Virus record (IMG/VR): IMGVR_UViG_3300022602_000433
Location: 1-23,663 of that record
Source of the DNA: a virus
Reading direction: 5' to 3' (one strand)
DNA: 23,663 nucleotides
Positions 9,480-18,058 of the stretch are shown one piece after another. Position numbers and translations under genes: made by a program. How positions within the stretch are numbered: the stretch's first letter is position 1; each line of letters starts with the position of its first letter. The notes beneath the pieces were generated by a model. It was not told the DNA's origin, ran no database searches, and saw nothing but the letters and a program-made list of their open reading frames with translations.

Positions 9480-9512
9480 GGATCACTCTCCCCTGTGTGC
9501 TTGAATTTTATC

Positions 9513-9522: not shown

Positions 9523-9526
9523 GGAG
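9523..9526 (+). promoter_or_regulatory. Ribosome-binding site deciding the Bug/TctC start
   Basis: GGAG lies 6 nt before ATG 9533 and marks it as the start, in preference to the in-frame GTG 9497 or ATG 9521. Starting at 9533 also puts the signal peptide at the very N-terminus (MKRILLFLAFLLN). Confidence 0.7.
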
Positions 9527-9532
9527 CAAATT

Positions 9533-10495
9533 ATGAAAAGAATACTGTTATTTTTGGCTTTTTTATTGAATTGTAGCTTGACTTACGCCGACAACCTTAG
9601 TATAATTACTCCGTCCCCTGATGATAGCTATACGATTAATGCTCGAATACTAGCCAAGTATCTTACCAAACATCTACCGAATCATCCTGACGTAATAATC
9701 CAGTCAATGCCTGGAGCGCAGAGTCTTGTTGCTGCTAACTGGCTGTATAACATAGCCCCCAGAGATGGATCGGTAATCGCCACATTACAAAAAGAAATAC
9801 CTTTCGATGGACTACTGGGTGGAAAGGGAGTGCAGTTTGATCAAACCAAATTCACATGGCTAGGGTCAACTTCCGATGGACGAAAAGATGCTGTGATGCT
9901 CTGGGCGAATGAACCTAATTTTCGTGACGATTTTATTGTTGGCGCTGAATCTCCAACAGCTGGAAATATGGCTGTGTTTCTTAATAAAGTGATGGGAACC
10001 AAATTTAAAATTGTAACAGGTTATGAAACAACAGGCGCGAATCGATTAGCGTTTGAGCGAAAAGAAACAGATGCCGTCATTTATAGTTTGGCTGGAGTTA
10101 AAACACAGAAACCAGATTGGCTCAATCCCGATTCTGCGATCAAACCATTCCTTCAATTCGGTAATGGAACAAATAGATTACCTGAATACTCAGATATTCC
10201 TACGCTAGAAGAAAAAGTAGATAGCAATTACTATCAATTGATCGAGGCTTTTGAAACGCAATTTATTTTACTCCGCCCGTTCTTAGCTCCGCCGAATCTA
10301 CCAACCGATAAAGTTACTGAACTACGCAGAGGATTAGAAGCAGCAGCAAATGATTCAGATTACATAGCCGAAGCAAAGAAAGCTAGAATCGATGTTAATT
10401 TTATACAAGGTGAAAGAGCTGAGATGATTGTTGACTTTCAATCAAGAACAGCTCAAAAAATTATAAACCAGCTGAAAGAAATATATCATGATTGA
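9533..10495 (+). CDS. Bug/TctC-family periplasmic solute-binding protein (phage-encoded)
   Basis: The 320-aa protein has a typical Sec signal peptide: basic MKR, hydrophobic ILLFLAFLLN, then SLTYA as a probable signal peptidase I site near residue 19. The mature part follows the TctC-like subfamily well: ARILAKYLTKHLPNHPDVII, MPGAQSLVAANWLYNIAPRD, GLLGGKGVQFDQTKFTWLGS, LNKVMGTKFKIVTGY, and C-terminal RPFLAPPNLPTDKVTELRRG. This family binds carboxylates and similar solutes for tripartite tricarboxylate transporters (TctABC). No membrane subunits lie in the window, so it would have to work with host TctAB or have another role. It is on the strand opposite to the late genes and heads a three-gene island. 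Family assignment is firm; substrate is unknown. Alternative starts at 9497 and 9521 are less likely. Confidence 0.87.
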   Translation: MKRILLFLAFLLNCSLTYADNLSIITPSPDDSYTINARILAKYLTKHLPNHPDVIIQSMPGAQSLVAANWLYNIAPRDGSVIATLQKEIPFDGLLGGKGVQFDQTKFTWLGSTSDGRKDAVMLWANEPNFRDDFIVGAESPTAGNMAVFLNKVMGTKFKIVTGYETTGANRLAFERKETDAVIYSLAGVKTQKPDWLNPDSAIKPFLQFGNGTNRLPEYSDIPTLEEKVDSNYYQLIEAFETQFILLRPFLAPPNLPTDKVTELRRGLEAAANDSDYIAEAKKARIDVNFIQGERAEMIVDFQSRTAQKIINQLKEIYHD

Positions 10496-11177
10496 ACATA
10501 AACTGTTTCCTACGCTTGTTACAGAACATCTCTATCCTGACCATGCAGAATTTAAGAAAAAGTTTGCTAAGAACATATTCAAACATATGACACCAGAAGG
10601 ATACTCGAGCGAGCTAACGAACCATGTAACATTACACCACGAAAAAGCTTTTGAGCCATTGTTTAAATTTGCCACAGAAGCAGCGAAAAAGCATTGCGAA
10701 CGATTGCATATTGATACAGAAAAATTTGACTTTAACATAATTAAAACTTGGATGAATATAAAAAAGAGCGCCGAAACACCAAAGCACATGCATGGGGATG
10801 CGCATATCTCATTTTCATACTATGTTAATATGCCACCAAATTTTGCTTGGCCAATACGTTTTTACAACTATGACAATCGACACGAACCATATCCAGGATC
10901 TATTGTACATAATAATACCAGTGGTATTTGGGATGAATTGAACTCTGGAAGTTGGCAATTTGTACCTAGTGAAGGTAGTCTTTTTGTTTTTCCATCTAAC
11001 CTTGTTCATGATACAGTTGGTAATACATCATGGAATATTCTTGAGCAGGGTGTAACAAAACAATCATTGATGGATTATCGCCATTGTTTAGCAGGTGATA
11101 TTCTTATGACTTACAAAAAGAAAACACCAAGTCACCTTGGCGTACAACCAGTATCAAATTGGAGGAATTTCGAATGA
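10488..11177 (+). CDS. Putative 2OG-Fe(II) oxygenase, type 1
   Basis: The product is 229 aa. The opening HKLFPTLVTEHLYPDH resembles the 'LFPTPV' start of the phage and bacterial putative 2OG-Fe(II) oxygenase family (TIGR02466-like). A double-stranded beta-helix core follows: FNIIKTWMNIKKS, then KHMHGDAHISFSYYVNMP with a possible H102-x-D104 metal pair, and PSEGSLFVFPSNLVHDTVGN with the distal His174. Together these could supply the 2-His-1-carboxylate iron site. Such enzymes hydroxylate a substrate using 2-oxoglutarate and O2; the substrate cannot be told from sequence. The gene overlaps the Bug/TctC gene by 8 nt and the next oxygenase by ATGA, so all three are coupled. Related genes are frequent in T4-like aquatic phages. 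Confidence 0.75.
   Translation: MIEHKLFPTLVTEHLYPDHAEFKKKFAKNIFKHMTPEGYSSELTNHVTLHHEKAFEPLFKFATEAAKKHCERLHIDTEKFDFNIIKTWMNIKKSAETPKHMHGDAHISFSYYVNMPPNFAWPIRFYNYDNRHEPYPGSIVHNNTSGIWDELNSGSWQFVPSEGSLFVFPSNLVHDTVGNTSWNILEQGVTKQSLMDYRHCLAGDILMTYKKKTPSHLGVQPVSNWRNFE
11161..11165 (+). promoter_or_regulatory. Ribosome-binding site of the second oxygenase gene
   Basis: GGAGG lies 8 nt before ATG 11174. It decides the start in favour of ATG 11174 over the in-frame TTG 11159, which lies upstream of this site. The ATG overlaps the preceding gene's stop as ATGA. Confidence 0.75.
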
Positions 11178-11755
11178 TATATAATGATCCATTTGAACGT
11201 GAAGTGATTACCTATCCTTATGTTTGGCAAGATAATATCTTTAGCGAACAAGAATTAAAAACGATAATTGATTATTGTGATTCAAAAGGAACGCAAGAAG
11301 CTACGACATTTGCTGGACTACAGCCTGACCTACGTAAATCAGAAATAAAATTCCATCAAAGAAACATTGACAATGGCTGGATATTTGACAGATTGAATAC
11401 GTTGATCGAATTCATTAATGAAAAATACTATCGATTTGATCTAAATGGATACAACTATTTTCAGTATACAAAATACAATAAAACAGGTAAATATGGCTGG
11501 CACATGGACACGCATTTGGGCGCTGATAATAGAGATCAAACTCGTAAGCTGTCCTTATCCATACAACTCAATGATGACTATACTGGTGGAGAGTTTATGA
11601 TCAATGAAGGTGAAGAAAAGAAAGCTTTTACTGTACCAATGAAAAAAGGAAGAGCTGTTTTATTCCCTTCCTTTTTGATTCATCGTGTTTCGCCAATTAA
11701 AAAAGGCATTCGTAAGTCTTTGGTTGTTTGGGTTCAAGGTCCAAAGTTTCGTTAA
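11174..11755 (+). CDS. Putative 2OG-Fe(II) oxygenase, prolyl-hydroxylase/PiuC-like
   Basis: The 193-aa protein has the prolyl 4-hydroxylase-type fold signature: YGWHMDTHLG with iron ligands H110 and D112, then RKLSLSIQLNDDYTGGEF, then AVLFPSFLIHRVSPI with distal His170 and GIRKSLVVWVQGP with R180 as probable 2OG carboxylate anchor. The spacing and the 'LS.siqLnd.Y.GGef' strand match the P4H/PiuC superfamily. Phage members are common, with substrates mostly unknown; protein (prolyl) or small-molecule hydroxylation are options. It is the last gene of the plus-strand island and ends in TAA 11753-11755, which overlaps the stop codon of the convergent minus-strand gene. All catalytic residues appear present. 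Confidence 0.83.
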   Translation: MIYNDPFEREVITYPYVWQDNIFSEQELKTIIDYCDSKGTQEATTFAGLQPDLRKSEIKFHQRNIDNGWIFDRLNTLIEFINEKYYRFDLNGYNYFQYTKYNKTGKYGWHMDTHLGADNRDQTRKLSLSIQLNDDYTGGEFMINEGEEKKAFTVPMKKGRAVLFPSFLIHRVSPIKKGIRKSLVVWVQGPKFR

Positions 11756-12168
11756 GTGTTAGAAGCCAAAGCGTTTGTTGTATGGATTAAAAACATTTGA
11801 CCATTAGAAAATTCAACGTATTTGGAAATAACAATTGTACTACCAACATTAGAAATGGAAGTCGTCGACGACTTCCATGCAGCTGTTTTGGCACCAATCA
11901 TAGCAAACATAGCATTGACATATTGATTGTTTGCATCTGATATACTTTTAGAAAACAACAAGGCATTTTTATCTGTGTCGATAGTGTATGTTTGATGCTG
12001 AGTGTTTTCATTATCCATAACACTAGTATAGCTATTACTCACATAGCCGTTTTGAACTAAAACGACATTGGTTTTGAACGCCTCAATAATTGCCTTTTCG
12101 CTATCAGTATAAGCTGGCAAAAATTGATCATTAGCTTGTTTAACTATTATTCTGTGAACTTTTGGCAT
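11752..12168 (-). CDS. Hypothetical protein, 138 aa, after the Bug/TctC gene
   Basis: I do not recognise this protein. It starts MPKVHRIIVKQANDQFLPAY, contains a possible helix (DSEKAIIEAF), then mostly beta-type Ser/Thr/Asn-rich sequence (VSNSYTSVMDNEN, STIVISKYVEFSNGQMFLI). It has no signal peptide or membrane segment. The composition and ISKYVEFSNGQMFLIHTTN ending are compatible with a small virion or tail protein rather than an enzyme, but that is a guess. It is the last gene of the long minus-strand run, preceded by GAGAG and a 9-nt gap. Its coding sequence carries a perfect 24-bp palindrome (11855-11878), and its stop codon shares TTAA with the converging oxygenase gene. Confidence 0.6.
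   Translation of the reverse strand: MPKVHRIIVKQANDQFLPAYTDSEKAIIEAFKTNVVLVQNGYVSNSYTSVMDNENTQHQTYTIDTDKNALLFSKSISDANNQYVNAMFAMIGAKTAAWKSSTTSISNVGSTIVISKYVEFSNGQMFLIHTTNALASNT
11855..11878. repeat. Perfect 24-bp palindrome inside a coding region
   Basis: The half-site ATGGAAGTCGTC is followed directly by its reverse complement, with no mismatch and no spacer. It is centred on GTCGAC between 11866 and 11867. The pairing stops at 11854/11879. As RNA it could fold into a hairpin of about 10 bp from either strand, and as DNA it could bind a symmetric dimer. It lies about 100 nt inside the minus-strand gene from the convergent junction. On the plus strand a TTTT run follows 7 nt after it, so a role as a terminator for the plus-strand island is possible but weak. 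Confidence 0.9.
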
Positions 12169-12177
12169 GTTTGCTCT

Positions 12178-13107
12178 CTAATGTTTGTCTCCATATACCT
12201 TATTTAGGTAACTCAACTCGTTTTTAACAGTTGCTTCTGTATCACTTGGATCCATACAATATGACATATATGGAGCTCTAAGTTCTGCTACTGTTTTAAA
12301 ATCAGGGCTAGCGCATGCTAATTTCATATCAGCCAAAAAGGTTTTAGCAAACTCTGGCTTTTCTTTGGGGATAGCAAATAACAGAATAGACTGCAGATTG
12401 AAGTCATTAAATCCGATTTCCTTACCTGTCGGCGCATCTGGAAAAGTTGTCATACGCGCATCCGAGGAAACAAGAATAGCTCTTAAACTTGTCATATCAG
12501 GTAATGTAAAAACAGTATAATCGATCTCTTTATTCTGAATAGCTAAAACAATTTCTGGTACTGTTTTATATTGTATCTCTTCGACTTTATCTTCTAGCCC
12601 ATAATGTTTTAAGAATATCTGATTCATCATTTTTGCGGCTGGAGCAACAAGAGTTCCGCCTTCATAGGACTTTGATCTACTCTTAATAAAAGCTACTAGA
12701 TCATCTACGTTTTTGATTGGCGAATTTGGCGCTACCAAAATACCAAGTGTGTTTTTACCGATTCCTGTGCTGAAGATAAAGTCATGATCGCGATCAATAC
12801 CAATATCTGGATTATTGATTCTGTTAAATGTTATTGTAGAAACGCCAGTAAAGAAAACAACATCCTGATTTTCTTTTGCTAATGCCTTTGCTCTTAAAGC
12901 AGCAGCATCACCAGAACCACCCATTGTAACAGCAAACTTATACTCGCGCTGGTTTTGAACTGTGTTAAGTATTTGTGTAATACCTATACCGATTTGACCG
13001 CCAGATCCTACAACTGGTAATGCGCTGACGATTTCAATCTGTTCGGCTGCCATGGCTGTTGTAGATAACAACAACGAGAGCGCGAGTATTTTAATTCCAT
13101 TTAACAT
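12178..13107 (-). CDS. Bug/TctC-family solute-binding protein, second subfamily
   Basis: The 309-aa protein has a Sec signal peptide (MLNGIKILALSLLLSTTAMA, cleavage likely after AMA at residue 20). The mature domain shows family hallmarks: GSGGQIGIGITQILN (the loop that normally grips the substrate carboxylate), LGILVAPNSPIKNVDDLVAF (120-140), and YKTVPEIVLAIQNKEIDYTV (180-199), corresponding to the usual 'YKG..pal.dLlgGqvDv' region. Two cysteines (C265, C284) near the C-terminus could form a periplasmic disulfide. It is only distantly similar to the plus-strand copy at 9533, so the phage carries two different subfamilies. It is coupled by a 17-nt overlap to the upstream PP-loop gene with AGGAG as ribosome-binding site. 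The substrate is unknown, and a host TctAB partner would be required for uptake. Confidence 0.82.
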   Translation of the reverse strand: MLNGIKILALSLLLSTTAMAAEQIEIVSALPVVGSGGQIGIGITQILNTVQNQREYKFAVTMGGSGDAAALRAKALAKENQDVVFFTGVSTITFNRINNPDIGIDRDHDFIFSTGIGKNTLGILVAPNSPIKNVDDLVAFIKSRSKSYEGGTLVAPAAKMMNQIFLKHYGLEDKVEEIQYKTVPEIVLAIQNKEIDYTVFTLPDMTSLRAILVSSDARMTTFPDAPTGKEIGFNDFNLQSILLFAIPKEKPEFAKTFLADMKLACASPDFKTVAELRAPYMSYCMDPSDTEATVKNELSYLNKVYGDKH

Positions 13108-14266
13108 TCAATTCTCCTATAATATATGAGTCAGTTGGAATATGATTCGATAGCATGTTTTTATTATCGATCTTTCTGTACTTGTTTAGATAGAAATTTT
13201 GTTGTTCCCTTAAAGCATCAGCGGCATTGTTTTTTTGTATCAAAGATACAAGCTTAATTTCTGGAGATATTTGTAAAGATTTTGGTGCGCTGAATAAACC
13301 AGAATGCCAATAGTAGTAAATATACTTAGTGTATTCTCTGGAGTAATTATGCATTGGTCCATGAGATCTAACATCTGGTTTTAATGGAGATTGATTAACA
13401 AAATTAAGATAAAGTTGTTTGTCATTTTCGAAAGCTTTCTTTAATACATGAGATTGTTTTATCGGTATAAGTGGAGCATCTTTACTCCAGAAGAAATTTT
13501 CAATTGTGTAAATTGGATCAATTTCGTTTTTACGAATAAGTTTGTCTCCAGTAAGAGCAGCATCATTAAAACTGAAAGTTAATTTTTTGTTTTTTACCTT
13601 TAAGTTTGGTTTTTCGACGCCACGAATAAACCCAGTTTTGTTCGTTTTTTTAATGTACAAATTATTATAATGATGTTGATAGAAATTTCTTGCGTATGGC
13701 GTCATTTGTATTACAAAACTAGCTTGTGTTCTTTTTCCATTAATTCCCATAAAAGTAAATTTGTTATTCAAAATATCATCAATAAGATTATGTGACATAT
13801 CGATGGAACTAATCTTAGTTTTTGGACTTAATTGTCTAACCTTTTCTAGTGTAGGAACACAAACCATTTCATATTCTAAAAATTGATTAACACCTTCAAT
13901 ATCTTTTAGAAAATTACGATCAAATCGAGCCATTGCTTTTTCGTAATGAATTACTTGTATTTCATCAATGAAGATGTTGTTTTCTAAAAATGTATAAAGT
14001 ATTTCGTGAGAGTCTGATCCTCCAGAATAACTGAGGATAAGGTAATCATAAGTGTCGCGAAGCTGTTGCGCTCTTTGTACATAAAGTTCTTTTAGAGAAA
14101 ATGGAGGCTCGACAGTCCAATCAATCGATCTAAAAACTTTTTCATTGAATTTAAAAACAACAGGCGGGCAGTCAATCTTATTGATTATAAAATTGTTCAT
14201 GTCATTCAGAGCTTCTTCTCGATCATAGTATATTTTATGATCGAATATATAATATCCGTTAATCAT
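13091..14266 (-). CDS. PP-loop ATPase-like protein A (asparagine-synthetase/QueC-type fold)
   Basis: The 391-aa protein carries the PP-loop nucleotide-binding motif SGGSDS at 81-86 in YDYLILSYSGGSDSHEIL, followed by NNIFIDEIQVIHYE. This is the HUP-domain signature of N-type ATP pyrophosphatases (asparagine synthetase B C-terminal domain, QueC, TilS, ThiI and relatives), which adenylate a carbonyl or carboxylate before attack by an amine, ammonia or sulfur. An N-terminal 50-residue extension (MINGYYIFDHKIYYDREEAL) and a long C-terminal region (about 200-390) do not match a named family I can recognise. There is no N-terminal glutaminase cysteine and no CxxC zinc cluster as in QueC. It is clearly paralogous to the gene at 15508-16545. 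It overlaps the neighbouring PP-loop gene by 8 nt. Confidence 0.72.
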   Translation of the reverse strand: MINGYYIFDHKIYYDREEALNDMNNFIINKIDCPPVVFKFNEKVFRSIDWTVEPPFSLKELYVQRAQQLRDTYDYLILSYSGGSDSHEILYTFLENNIFIDEIQVIHYEKAMARFDRNFLKDIEGVNQFLEYEMVCVPTLEKVRQLSPKTKISSIDMSHNLIDDILNNKFTFMGINGKRTQASFVIQMTPYARNFYQHHYNNLYIKKTNKTGFIRGVEKPNLKVKNKKLTFSFNDAALTGDKLIRKNEIDPIYTIENFFWSKDAPLIPIKQSHVLKKAFENDKQLYLNFVNQSPLKPDVRSHGPMHNYSREYTKYIYYYWHSGLFSAPKSLQISPEIKLVSLIQKNNAADALREQQNFYLNKYRKIDNKNMLSNHIPTDSYIIGELNVKWN

Positions 14267-15074
14267 TTTTCCACTTATCTAAATAGCTCAAAAAATCCTC
14301 TCTTCTACCAAGAGGAAAAGAATAACCGACCGAAAGATCTCTGCCAGATAAAATATGTTTTATGATTTTTCTAAATTCGACTGGGAAATTATACTTCATA
14401 ACTGGTCGATAATCTGTGTTATATAACTTATGTTTGTATTCATCAATCGGTATTTCCTCTATCGCTTCTACCATCGCATACGTAAGTTCTACAGTATACA
14501 TGAAGAATGGTATATTATACTCCTCGCCTACCAATGCTTCATTGATAAAATCCCACTCATTCATTCCTGGGAATATACCAGTATGATCATTATCAATCAT
14601 ATGTTCGCCAATAATAAGAATACCGCTATTATCTTTTGCGTATTTACAGGCGACTAATCCTGGAACAGAATATATTCCATGACAGTTTAAATTGGCAAAA
14701 ATTTCATTGTTGTATGATCGAATTATATCATAATCTGATAATTCAATAATGATTGGTTCAATGTTTAATTTGCGACAGGAATGGTGAGCGTATGCTGCTT
14801 CGTTTTCGTTACCAGATGTTTTTACAATAATCGGTTTGATAGGTAAGTTATTTTCTGCGAATACATGCAAAACAAAATCAGAATCAGCTCCGCCAGATAG
14901 CGCTAGGAATACAGATGGATATTTGTCGGAGATCATTTTCGCTGTCATATTAGCAGCAGAACGAAAGTCCATATGTTTAAAAGAGTATGGGTTCAAATCG
15001 ACTTTGAAGTCAACTTTCTTATCAGTAATTCTATCTTTTAAATTACTCTTAACCCAGTAATTATGTGTTGTCAT
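14259..15074 (-). CDS. PP-loop ATPase-like protein B
   Basis: The 271-aa protein has the PP-loop SGGADS at 60-65 in YPSVFLALSGGADSDFVLHV. A second conserved strand reads LPIKPIIVKTSGNENEAAY, with a possible Glu/Asn substrate contact, then CRKLNIEPIIIELSDYDIIR. This is closer to the canonical ATP-pyrophosphatase core than the two flanking paralogues and lacks their N-terminal extension. It has no glutaminase domain and no zinc-cysteine cluster. The start is taken at ATG 15074, which overlaps the upstream stop as TAATG with GGGA before it; an in-frame TTG at 15089 would add five residues but lies inside the upstream gene with no advantage. The function is probably AMP-forming activation of a substrate carboxylate or carbonyl; the substrate is unknown. 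Confidence 0.72.
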   Translation of the reverse strand: MTTHNYWVKSNLKDRITDKKVDFKVDLNPYSFKHMDFRSAANMTAKMISDKYPSVFLALSGGADSDFVLHVFAENNLPIKPIIVKTSGNENEAAYAHHSCRKLNIEPIIIELSDYDIIRSYNNEIFANLNCHGIYSVPGLVACKYAKDNSGILIIGEHMIDNDHTGIFPGMNEWDFINEALVGEEYNIPFFMYTVELTYAMVEAIEEIPIDEYKHKLYNTDYRPVMKYNFPVEFRKIIKHILSGRDLSVGYSFPLGRREDFLSYLDKWKND

Positions 15075-15511
15075 TATAATCCCATCCAACTACCAAATAT
15101 CATATCCCAGACTGGAGTGAACACGCCGTAGTTTTTGTTGGGTTGTTCATGGTGTATTAGATGCCATTTACCAGATGTAAGGAAAGGATACAGATTGATC
15201 TTACTATTATGCTCAATCGCCTCTTGTATATAGCCCGCCCAAATATAATAAAAAACAGCAATCCACCATTGATTGGTTATAAAGGAAAAAATGATTGTCG
15301 GTATAACTTCGGTCAGCCACTGATCGATAGTGCTGTTAATCGAGTCAAAATAAAGGAAGAAGTTTTTCCAGTTTAATCCCTGAACAGTCTGTTGCGTTAC
15401 CTGTTTGTGATGATCAGCATGATAATATCTCATAAATGGAATAACGTGTGCTGCTCTATGTGTTGTATAGAGTAGTAAAGTCCAAAGTATGAAATAGAGT
15501 ACATAGCTCAT
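15074..15511 (-). CDS. Fatty-acid-hydroxylase superfamily di-iron membrane protein
   Basis: The 145-aa protein has the histidine-box pattern of the FA_hydroxylase / sterol desaturase superfamily: H18-x3-H22 (THRAAH), H31-xx-HH (YHADHHK), H101 (EHNS) and H117-xx-HH (KWHLIHHEQPNKNYGV), ending FTPVWDMIFGSW as is typical. Hydrophobic segments at about 1-16 and 65-95 would embed it in the inner membrane with the di-iron centre on the cytoplasmic face. The superfamily uses O2 to hydroxylate or desaturate acyl chains, sterols, carotenoids or aldehydes. At 145 aa it is near the short end for the family, but all His boxes are present. It lies between two PP-loop genes with ATGA and TAATG overlaps, so it is part of the same transcript. 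The substrate is unknown. Confidence 0.8.
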   Translation of the reverse strand: MSYVLYFILWTLLLYTTHRAAHVIPFMRYYHADHHKQVTQQTVQGLNWKNFFLYFDSINSTIDQWLTEVIPTIIFSFITNQWWIAVFYYIWAGYIQEAIEHNSKINLYPFLTSGKWHLIHHEQPNKNYGVFTPVWDMIFGSWMGL

Positions 15512-16545: not shown

Positions 16546-16958
16546 TAGTTCTTAAGATTTTTCAACAATTCCTCGACATCAGCTTCATCAATAGCAGCTG
16601 GTGTGATTGGATTAACGATTTTAGAAACTTCGTCTCCAGTTTTATGAGAAGTTTGTCCAACCAAAGCTTTAACATGATCTATATTTGTATCTGTATTTGG
16701 ATCACGAACTGCTTCGATTTTCTTTAACCATTCGTACGGAGCATGCGAAACAAGCAATTTATCTAAGTCATCACCTTTTTCTGGCGGAACAGATAAATTG
16801 ATCGCTACGTCTGTACGACATCTTACTGGCGTTCCATCTGGATTTCTATTAGCATCGCTTGCTAATGCTTCTTCAGATAATACGTCTGTCCAGTAGCGAG
16901 CAACAATTAAGTGATCGTCTGGCCAAACTTCAATAATTTTGTAATGTAAGTTTGTCAT
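16545..16958 (-). CDS. Hypothetical protein downstream of collagen-like fibre
   Basis: This is a 137-aa, acidic, soluble protein. The N-terminal half, LHYKIIEVWPDDHLIVARYW with NRNPDGTPVRCRTDVAIN, has the look of a small beta-domain seen in phage proteins encoded beside fibres. The second half is helical (APYEWLKKIEAV, AIDEADVEELLKNLKN). I do not recognise a defined family. Position directly after the collagen-like fibre gene with ATGA overlap (16955-16958) suggests a fibre assembly chaperone or accessory subunit, by analogy with the small genes that follow fibre genes in many phages. Its own stop overlaps the start of the first PP-loop gene, linking structural and enzyme genes in one run. 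Confidence 0.62.
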   Translation of the reverse strand: MTNLHYKIIEVWPDDHLIVARYWTDVLSEEALASDANRNPDGTPVRCRTDVAINLSVPPEKGDDLDKLLVSHAPYEWLKKIEAVRDPNTDTNIDHVKALVGQTSHKTGDEVSKIVNPITPAAIDEADVEELLKNLKN

Positions 16959-18058
16959 GAGATTGGTCCGTTTCTTGTTCCTGTTGATATGTAAGCTGTT
17001 ATGTTTGAATTTCCTGTGATTGCGTTACCTTGTGAACCAGTTGGACCTGTTGGACCCTGAGAACCTGTTGGACCTTGTGGACCAATTGAACCCGTTGGTC
17101 CAGTAGGACCTACTGATCCAGCGCCACCACCAGAACCACCAGCATATCCACCAGTTCCTGTTGCGCCAGCGGCTCCTGCAGAATTCAATGATCCACCAGT
17201 ACCACCTGCGCCACCTGCGCCTCCGTATCCGTCGCCAGCACCAGCTCCGCCGCCACCGCCACTAGTGAAGTTACCACTAGCACCGCCAGCATTACCAGCG
17301 CCACCAGTTCCTGGGGGCGTACCGCCTCCGCCGCCTCCACCACCGCCTCTGGCTTGTGTCTGTCCAATTCCTTTACCGTAGTTAACGTGCGACCATCCGC
17401 CGCCTCCGCCGCCTCCGCCGCCACCAGGACCTCCTGGACCTCCAGCTCCACCAGGACCTCCTGGACCTCCAGCTCCACCAGGACCGCCTGGACCTCCAGT
17501 ACCACCTGTACCACCAGTAATTGTTGTTACGTTATTGAGATATAAAAAAACATTTGAGTTTGTTGGAGCAGCAAAACCTGCGCCACCAGTACCACCAGTA
17601 CCGCCTGTTGCGCCAGTACCACCTGTACCACCTGTACCACCTGTTCCGCCAGTGTAACCTATGCTCCCAGGAGAACCACCACCACCAACACTACCACCAC
17701 CAACACCAGTTGGTGAAGCTCCACCAACGCCACCAGCGCCGTAAGATCCAGCACTTCCCGTAGAACCTGGAGCTCCTGTCGCGCCTGTTGTTCCAGTATT
17801 ACCAGTGCTACCAGTAACACCTGTAGCGCCTGTTATTGTATTTGAATTTTGAACGTAAAGATATGAACCGCCAGTCCAGCCAGTTCCTACATCAAATGCA
17901 GGTGTTGTGTTAACTGTACCAGAAACAGTAGCATTGATAAACGCCAATACGTTAACACCGCCGACTGGCGAACCAGCAGCAGTATACAGGTTAACATTAT
18001 TAGCAGGAGTGTTAATGTTAACAATCCGAGTATTTCTGTTGATAAAGTTAACGAACAT
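16955..18058 (-). CDS. Collagen-like glycine-rich tail fibre protein
   Basis: The 367-aa protein has a short beta-rich N-terminal domain (MFVNFINRNTRIVNINTPAN to about 75) and then long Gly-x-y stretches: GATGVTGSTGNTGTTGATGA, three copies of GGPGGPGGA or close to it, glycine-only runs, and a C-terminal GPTGPTGSIGPQGPTGSQG segment. Such repeats form trimeric collagen-like rods in phage fibres. Between the rods are glycine-rich blocks resembling the other adhesins here. In the GGPGGPGGA block proline sits in the Y position, the usual substrate site for prolyl 4-hydroxylation; in the C-terminal block it is in X. AGGA precedes the ATG. It heads the run that continues into the enzyme cassette. 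Confidence 0.82.
   Translation of the reverse strand: MFVNFINRNTRIVNINTPANNVNLYTAAGSPVGGVNVLAFINATVSGTVNTTPAFDVGTGWTGGSYLYVQNSNTITGATGVTGSTGNTGTTGATGAPGSTGSAGSYGAGGVGGASPTGVGGGSVGGGGSPGSIGYTGGTGGTGGTGGTGATGGTGGTGGAGFAAPTNSNVFLYLNNVTTITGGTGGTGGPGGPGGAGGPGGPGGAGGPGGPGGGGGGGGGGWSHVNYGKGIGQTQARGGGGGGGGGTPPGTGGAGNAGGASGNFTSGGGGGAGAGDGYGGAGGAGGTGGSLNSAGAAGATGTGGYAGGSGGGAGSVGPTGPTGSIGPQGPTGSQGPTGPTGSQGNAITGNSNITAYISTGTRNGPIS
17421..17501. repeat. Three tandem 27-bp repeats in the collagen-like gene
   Basis: Units are 17421-17447, 17448-17474 and 17475-17501. The first two are identical and the third differs at two positions. Each encodes GGPGGPGGA (the last copy ends in G instead of A) on the minus strand. 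The period is a multiple of three, so copy-number change by slippage would lengthen or shorten the rod without a frameshift. Confidence 0.9.

Follow-up and report, generated by a model that had tools for sequence, protein, structure and literature searches.

Predicted exported Bug/TctC-fold proteins and linked PP-loop genes in a T4-like myophage fragment and other phage contigs

A stretch of viral DNA of 23,663 nucleotides (IMG/VR record IMGVR_UViG_3300022602_000433), here called the window, carries two genes for Bug/TctC-type solute-binding proteins (SBPs) with predicted export signals, referred to as P1 and P2. The window is a 23.7 kb fragment of a T4-like myophage, with genes for a tail sheath, a terminase and neck proteins. 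The two Bug genes were recognised in an earlier note made from the sequence alone, which missed the adjacent genes for PP-loop ATPase-like proteins that provide the strongest clue. Bug proteins and PP-loop enzymes are already known, as is the notion that a phage can encode an SBP; what is new is that phage Bug-fold genes are paired with a PP-loop gene, in what looks like an undescribed phage module and not a stray host gene.

The P1/P2 locus and the predicted folds

The P1 and P2 open reading frames (ORFs) are intact. The ATG at 9533 is preferred as the start of P1 over a GTG at 9497 because of the GGAG at 9523-9526. Coordinates are collected in the table below.

P2 matches the Pfam TctC model PF03401 with 47.6 bits (cut-off 27, E 2e-12). 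P1 by itself matched no Pfam model, and a sequence search of the PDB with P1 gave chance matches only; a relative of P1 in contig L102 scores 15.1 bits to PF03401. The kinship of P1 to TctC-type genes that adjoin TctA was seen by tblastn and with hidden Markov models, its identity to bacterial TctC-type proteins is 28-37%, and profile-profile comparison joins P1 to P2 (probability 97.7, E 2.5e-12). AlphaFold2 models were obtained with mean predicted local distance difference test (pLDDT) scores of 92.0 for P1 and 86.6 for P2, and Foldseek was also run. For both models alike, the best 11 PDB entries are Bug/TctC structures, with Z scores of 24.4-21.2 for P1 (next family 14.7) and 30.1-27.0 for P2 (next family 17.4). 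Since Bug/TctC entries rank first and the next family follows only at a distance, the models settle the fold. By these models P1 and P2 are full-length Bug-fold proteins, in two distantly related subfamilies of one superfamily; the claim is one of shared Bug/TctC fold and ancestry, and does not extend to the canonical ligand handling of tripartite tricarboxylate transporter (TTT) proteins.

Both N-termini are Sec-like by a heuristic prediction, which makes the same call for 30/31 phage P1 proteins and 14/14 phage P2 proteins; among Bug ORFs at PP-loop loci the count is 77/79, and among the other phage ORFs that served as controls it is 12/186. The earlier description of two exported Bug-fold proteins of different subfamilies, on opposite strands of one phage, therefore stands, with 1.68 kb between the genes, and a binding-protein fold instead of a structural-protein fold is what both models predict. 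The ratio of nonsynonymous to synonymous substitution rates (dN/dS) lies at 0.035-0.14 across the P1/P2 pairs with finite values, as for neighbouring phage genes, with 0.10 for P1 (against its relative in L002) and 0.10-0.13 for P2; both genes are under purifying selection. Cys265 and Cys284 of P2 are invariant across 14 P2 proteins, and among 51 Bug ORFs at loci L173-L206 there are exactly two cysteines after the signal region in 39 and none in 12. Two conserved cysteines fit a periplasmic disulfide, which Cys265 and Cys284 presumably form.

Table. Features of the window discussed in the text
Feature	Position	Strand	Basis or remark
P1, exported Bug/TctC-fold protein (predicted), phage-specific subfamily 1, 320 aa	9533..10495	+	AlphaFold2, Shine-Dalgarno, dN/dS
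Shine-Dalgarno GGAG of P1	9523..9526	+	
P2, exported Bug/TctC-fold protein (predicted), phage-specific subfamily 2, 309 aa	12178..13107	-	PF03401, AlphaFold2, Cys pair
Shine-Dalgarno AGGAG of P2	13114..13118	-	within PP-loop gene 13091-14266
Long-form PP-loop ATPase-like protein, 391 aa	13091..14266	-	SGGSDS motif; 17-nt overlap with P2 start
Second PP-loop-type protein	14259..15089	-	weak Asn_synthase / tRNA_Me_trans similarity; alternative ATG 15074
Short-form relative of the long PP-loop family, 345 aa	15508..16545	-	
2-oxoglutarate (2OG)-Fe(II) oxygenase	10488..11177	+	PF13759, phrog_81; 8-nt overlap with P1 end
2OG-Fe(II) oxygenase	11174..11755	+	PF13640, phrog_61
138-aa ORF downstream of P2	11752..12168	-	no convincing family
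Fatty acid hydroxylase-superfamily protein, in PP-loop gene block	15074..15511	-	PF04116, E 5e-16

Pairing of Bug genes with PP-loop genes

The ribosome-binding site of P2 sits inside the long-form PP-loop gene, to which P2 is presumably translationally coupled. Residues S81, G82, G83, D85 and S86 of the SGGxDS motif are invariant in 21 long- and short-form members, and the long-form family has no Pfam match and no meaningful PDB match. The second PP-loop-type protein has sub-threshold Pfam matches and is linked to the long-form family by profile comparison (probability 92.5).

The pairing was examined by searching viral contigs with the PP-loop families, which avoids a search from the Bug side; the PP-loop ORFs were dereplicated at 90% identity and neighbour counts were compared by Fisher test. 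A Bug gene is the immediate neighbour of 29/30 long-form ORFs. For other ORFs at the same loci the count is 81/466 (p 1e-19), and for the short-form relatives it is 2/15 (p 2e-8 against the long form). The second PP-loop family has an immediate Bug neighbour in 17/23 cases (p 1e-8), and more distant PP-loop ORFs in only 11/38. These p-values treat the dereplicated loci as independent, so that shared phage ancestry weakens them, and the profiles used for the search derive from PP-loop genes that had initially been encountered next to Bug genes, which favours the closest relatives. In 29 of the 33 pairs both genes share a strand and the Bug gene follows downstream; the gap between the two genes ranges from -53 to +17 nt across the whole set of 33. 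Partners of the second PP-loop family are P1-type genes, both in T4-like contigs and in GC-rich (50-55%) contigs with other structural genes.

Among 88 bacterial loci with P1-type Bug genes there is a single SGGxDS ORF, asparagine-synthase-like by eye, and the pairing therefore looks phage-specific. The long-form profile found no member in 289 genomes from the class of an alphaproteobacterial metagenome-assembled genome (MAG) or in 300 from the order of a Caballeronia, which is weak evidence given that there was no positive control. On very large viral contigs (L207-L250, for example L239:4911-7965; and G602-G605, 235-354 kb), some of the distant long-form PP-loop genes also have Bug genes in their vicinity, and a number of these Bug genes retain the GGxxD signature described below.

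Other genes of the cassette encode an amidoligase (PF12224) and, by eye, a methyltransferase-like protein. Amidoligase_2 family genes share a cassette with PP-loop and Bug genes in L111 (5038-5844, where PF12224 was tested), L112 and L110. Positions 16955-18058 of the window and L118:1622-3805 encode putative tail proteins that contain GXY repeats (GPTGPTGSQG) resembling collagen, and it is conceivable that the phage collagen is hydroxylated by 2OG-Fe(II) oxygenases from the same region of the window. ORFs of homing-endonuclease type, GIY-YIG-like by eye, lie between neck genes in L002 (1761-2438) and L014 (3734-4516) and are absent from the window.

Distribution, origin and the ligand loop

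A scan of viral contigs found relatives of P1 on 29 of them, and P2-like ORFs were seen at 12 of the first loci, with many more at PP-loop loci. Several contigs carry both the P1 type and the P2 type and some carry two P2 genes, so that two Bug genes per phage are not rare within this group. Two or three P1-type Bug genes are present on the phage contigs L112 (3303-4277) and L139; the second P1-type copy in L112 is divergent and retains the Asp of the ligand loop. By tblastn, P1, P2, one distant phage Bug and three PP-loop proteins had no match in 50,697 GenBank phage records, and consequently no host can be read from an isolate. In the BFVD database a small number of proteins from uncultured Caudovirales phages are annotated automatically as Bug. 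Misassignment of some IMG/VR contigs is possible, but phage structural genes are present in the window and at the T4-like loci.

In a tree of 92 rows from a quick search, 29/30 phage P1 proteins form one group (SH-aLRT, an approximate likelihood ratio test, 94). The remaining one, from L121, stands apart on a long branch and may be a separate acquisition. A genome scan, for which alignment A3 was used since A1 was too diverse, placed the nearest bacterial kin of P1 mostly in Hyphomicrobiales/Alphaproteobacteria, at 28-37% identity. P2 scores 372-455 bits among the full-length phage members listed, with 267 bits for one 249-aa member; no close bacterial relative was found, the matches reaching at most 86 bits in 150 genomes from the order of a Caballeronia and a few other bacterial genomes. 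In the genome of an alphaproteobacterial MAG (G004, locus L045) the P2 profile matches 136 times; TctC is massively expanded there, as in Rhodoplanes. P1 and P2 appear to be old phage lineages kept by selection and not recent host genes.

The terminase of the window has its best matches in Sinorhizobium/Rhizobium phages, with 58.7% identity to Sinorhizobium phages phiN3 and phiM12; judged from these sequences, the terminase and the kin of P1 lean towards an alphaproteobacterial host. The hint at Betaproteobacteria in the earlier note is not upheld. For P1, the phylogeny that it proposed as a route to bacterial clades and host led to mostly alphaproteobacterial kin. For P2, the genomes searched contained no close bacterial relative.

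In TTT binding proteins a near-ubiquitous P-F-x-A-G-G-x-x-D loop holds the proximal carboxylate of the ligand via two waters (PMC5812351, PMC8556258), and some Bug proteins, as a review notes, vary in this signature loop. The signature was tested at the beta1-alpha1 loop, and its GGxxD core was scored. The core is present in 0/30 phage P1 proteins, against 85/97 bacterial relatives, and in 0/51 P1/P2-type ORFs at L173-L206. At five loop positions the P1 of the window reads D-D-S-Y-T, against G-G-x-Y-D in its bacterial kin, and the pocket loops of P1 and P2 differ from each other; the two copies may, as the earlier note suggests, serve two substrates. The signature is kept in several Bug proteins from phages that are larger or more distantly related, for example as APGGPSD. 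The P1 and P2 subfamilies have a rebuilt ligand pocket. Known TTT proteins use this loop to hold the proximal carboxylate; since it is rebuilt here, a standard dicarboxylate is an improbable ligand, and with the GGxxD core lost a carboxylate ligand cannot be assumed. The proposal of carboxylate uptake via TctAB is accordingly not supported, as the core is missing from all phage P1 proteins and from all P2 proteins examined.

Possible functions and comparison with known systems

The mechanism proposed here is tentative, a serious candidate held at somewhat less than probable: P1 and P2 would capture a periplasmic metabolite, a host permease would import it, and the linked PP-loop enzyme would activate the compound. 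During infection the host Sec system would export both proteins to the periplasm, where they would seize a small metabolite and pass it to a permease of the host, since the phages searched bring none. The imported compound would then be the substrate of the PP-loop ATPase-like enzyme and be activated by adenylation. PP-loop enzymes such as asparagine synthetase, NAD synthetase and QueC adenylate carboxylate substrates. Characterised Bug proteins are mostly carboxylate binders (PMC5812351). The predicted fold, the export signals, purifying selection, the conserved P2/PP-loop pair with its overlap in the window and the loss of GGxxD have been computed; that P1 and P2 bind a ligand and deliver it to a permease, and that the enzyme acts on it, is inferred.

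TctA (PF01970) was found in none of 17 viral records of up to 354 kb, with control genomes positive; the records may be fragments, and TctB was not searched. This agrees with the earlier suggestion of a borrowed host permease, on which the phage proteins would rely if they serve transport at all. Orphan SBPs are common in bacteria, and for this reason, together with the limits of the search, a host permease may still be their partner.

Several points weigh against the proposed mechanism. With the GGxxD core gone, the proteins may no longer bind a solute. Di- and tricarboxylates held by the GGxxD loop make up most of the TTT ligands characterised so far (PMC5812351), which sits badly with a carboxylate-activating partner. 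Some TctC proteins, such as BctC, work in signalling (PMC5812351). The long-form PP-loop family has no meaningful Pfam or PDB match that would point to a substrate, the P1 gene of the window lies several genes away from the nearest PP-loop gene, and adjacency of genes is no proof of a shared pathway.

It is possible, if rather unlikely, that the proteins are exported and bind solute for sensing, through a two-component or chemosensory system of the host, or for sequestering a metabolite, a signal or a toxic compound. The absence of TctA and the lost core are in keeping with this, and there is precedent in BctC-BctDE, in which BctC acts with BctE (PMC5812351), and in the signalling proposed for orphan TTT SBPs of Rhodoplanes (PMC5994714). 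However, the neighbourhood of P1 and P2 showed no recognisable sensor kinase or regulator, and a role in metabolism is suggested by the close pairing with the gene of an ATPase-like protein that is presumably cytosolic. A role in envelope remodelling or superinfection block seems improbable. Here the Bug scaffold would mask or modify a receptor, while the PP-loop, 2OG oxygenase, fatty acid hydroxylase, amidoligase and methyltransferase-like genes would modify the envelope or the virion. The cassette does adjoin tail-fibre and neck genes, its content varies, its neighbouring genes encode modifying enzymes, and QueC-family PP-loop enzymes can conjugate nucleobases to proteins (PMC11996544, PMC13279940). 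Nevertheless, the whole two-lobed Bug fold is kept in both models, and PADLOC gave no match for the ten cassette proteins tested.

Linkage by hitch-hiking in a hypervariable moron locus, with no shared function, is very unlikely. All of the genes lie in a plastic region by tail-fibre genes, the T4-like contigs share ancestry, and 17% of control ORFs at the same loci also adjoin a Bug gene, but the pairing is specific to the long form and does not extend to its paralogue at the same loci. The coupled overlaps, and the second PP-loop family with its P1-type partners in GC-rich phages with other structural genes, also speak against this reading. Least credible is the view of the earlier note, already disfavoured, that these are ordinary auxiliary genes of recent betaproteobacterial origin for tricarboxylate uptake. 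Membership in the Bug family and the intact look of the proteins would suit it; recent betaproteobacterial capture is unlikely because the P1 phage clade stands apart from bacteria, with closest kin that are mostly alphaproteobacterial, and because the bacterial matches of P2 in the genomes searched fall far below its phage members, and the GGxxD signature is lost besides.

In broader terms than the capture-and-activation mechanism, the data may well reflect a widespread two-gene phage module, a reading that comes close to, but does not reach, being probable. In this module the gene of a PP-loop ATPase-like enzyme would be coupled in translation to that of an exported Bug-fold protein whose ligand site is rebuilt, and by means of this protein the phage would scavenge or control a specific periplasmic metabolite during infection. 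Phage-encoded SBPs have so far been mainly PstS in cyanophages. To these are now added two or more subfamilies from a different family of binding proteins, kept in many uncultured phages whose contigs range from T4-like fragments to more than 300 kb. This points to a metabolic or envelope function that has been overlooked as these phages are uncultured, and it offers a concrete protein pair that is open to expression and testing.

No report of a Bug/PP-loop pairing in phages was found in the open-access literature; a glacier-ice paper that matched TctC was rejected, the match being a primer sequence. TTT genes have been noted on viral contigs, as a tctA domain match in SUP05 phages with a 2OG-FeII oxygenase among the auxiliary genes (PMC4164917) and as tricarboxylate transport genes in a myovirus of an oxygen-depleted zone (PMC8115048). 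In the parts of these papers that were seen, the mentions are passing ones, without PP-loop pairing or family analysis. In UniProt, proteins from uncultured Caudovirales phages that carry the automatic annotation 'PBP2_Bug_TTT' or 'Bordetella uptake' (A0A6J5T247 among them) also have the Bug fold, at no more than 13-17% identity to P1, and no published study of these proteins was found.

By prediction, P1 and P2 share the full-length fold and the Sec signal with bacterial Bug/TctC SBPs (BugD 2F5X, BugE 2DVZ, Bug27 2QPQ, MatC 6HKE, AdpC 5OEI, TphC 7NDS). P1 retains the PGA motif after strand 2 but, unlike its bacterial kin, has no FYxGKT segment at the N-terminus. Both phage proteins differ from the bacterial ones in the missing GGxxD core, P2 in its conserved Cys pair, and the phages searched in having no TctA. 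Like cyanophage PstS, which relies on a host permease, P1 and P2 are phage-encoded, predicted exported SBPs (PMC6359870). They belong to another binding-protein family. For PstS the ligand is known and upregulation occurs when the host is P-limited (PMC6359870), and it is the Bug genes described here that are tied to a PP-loop gene.

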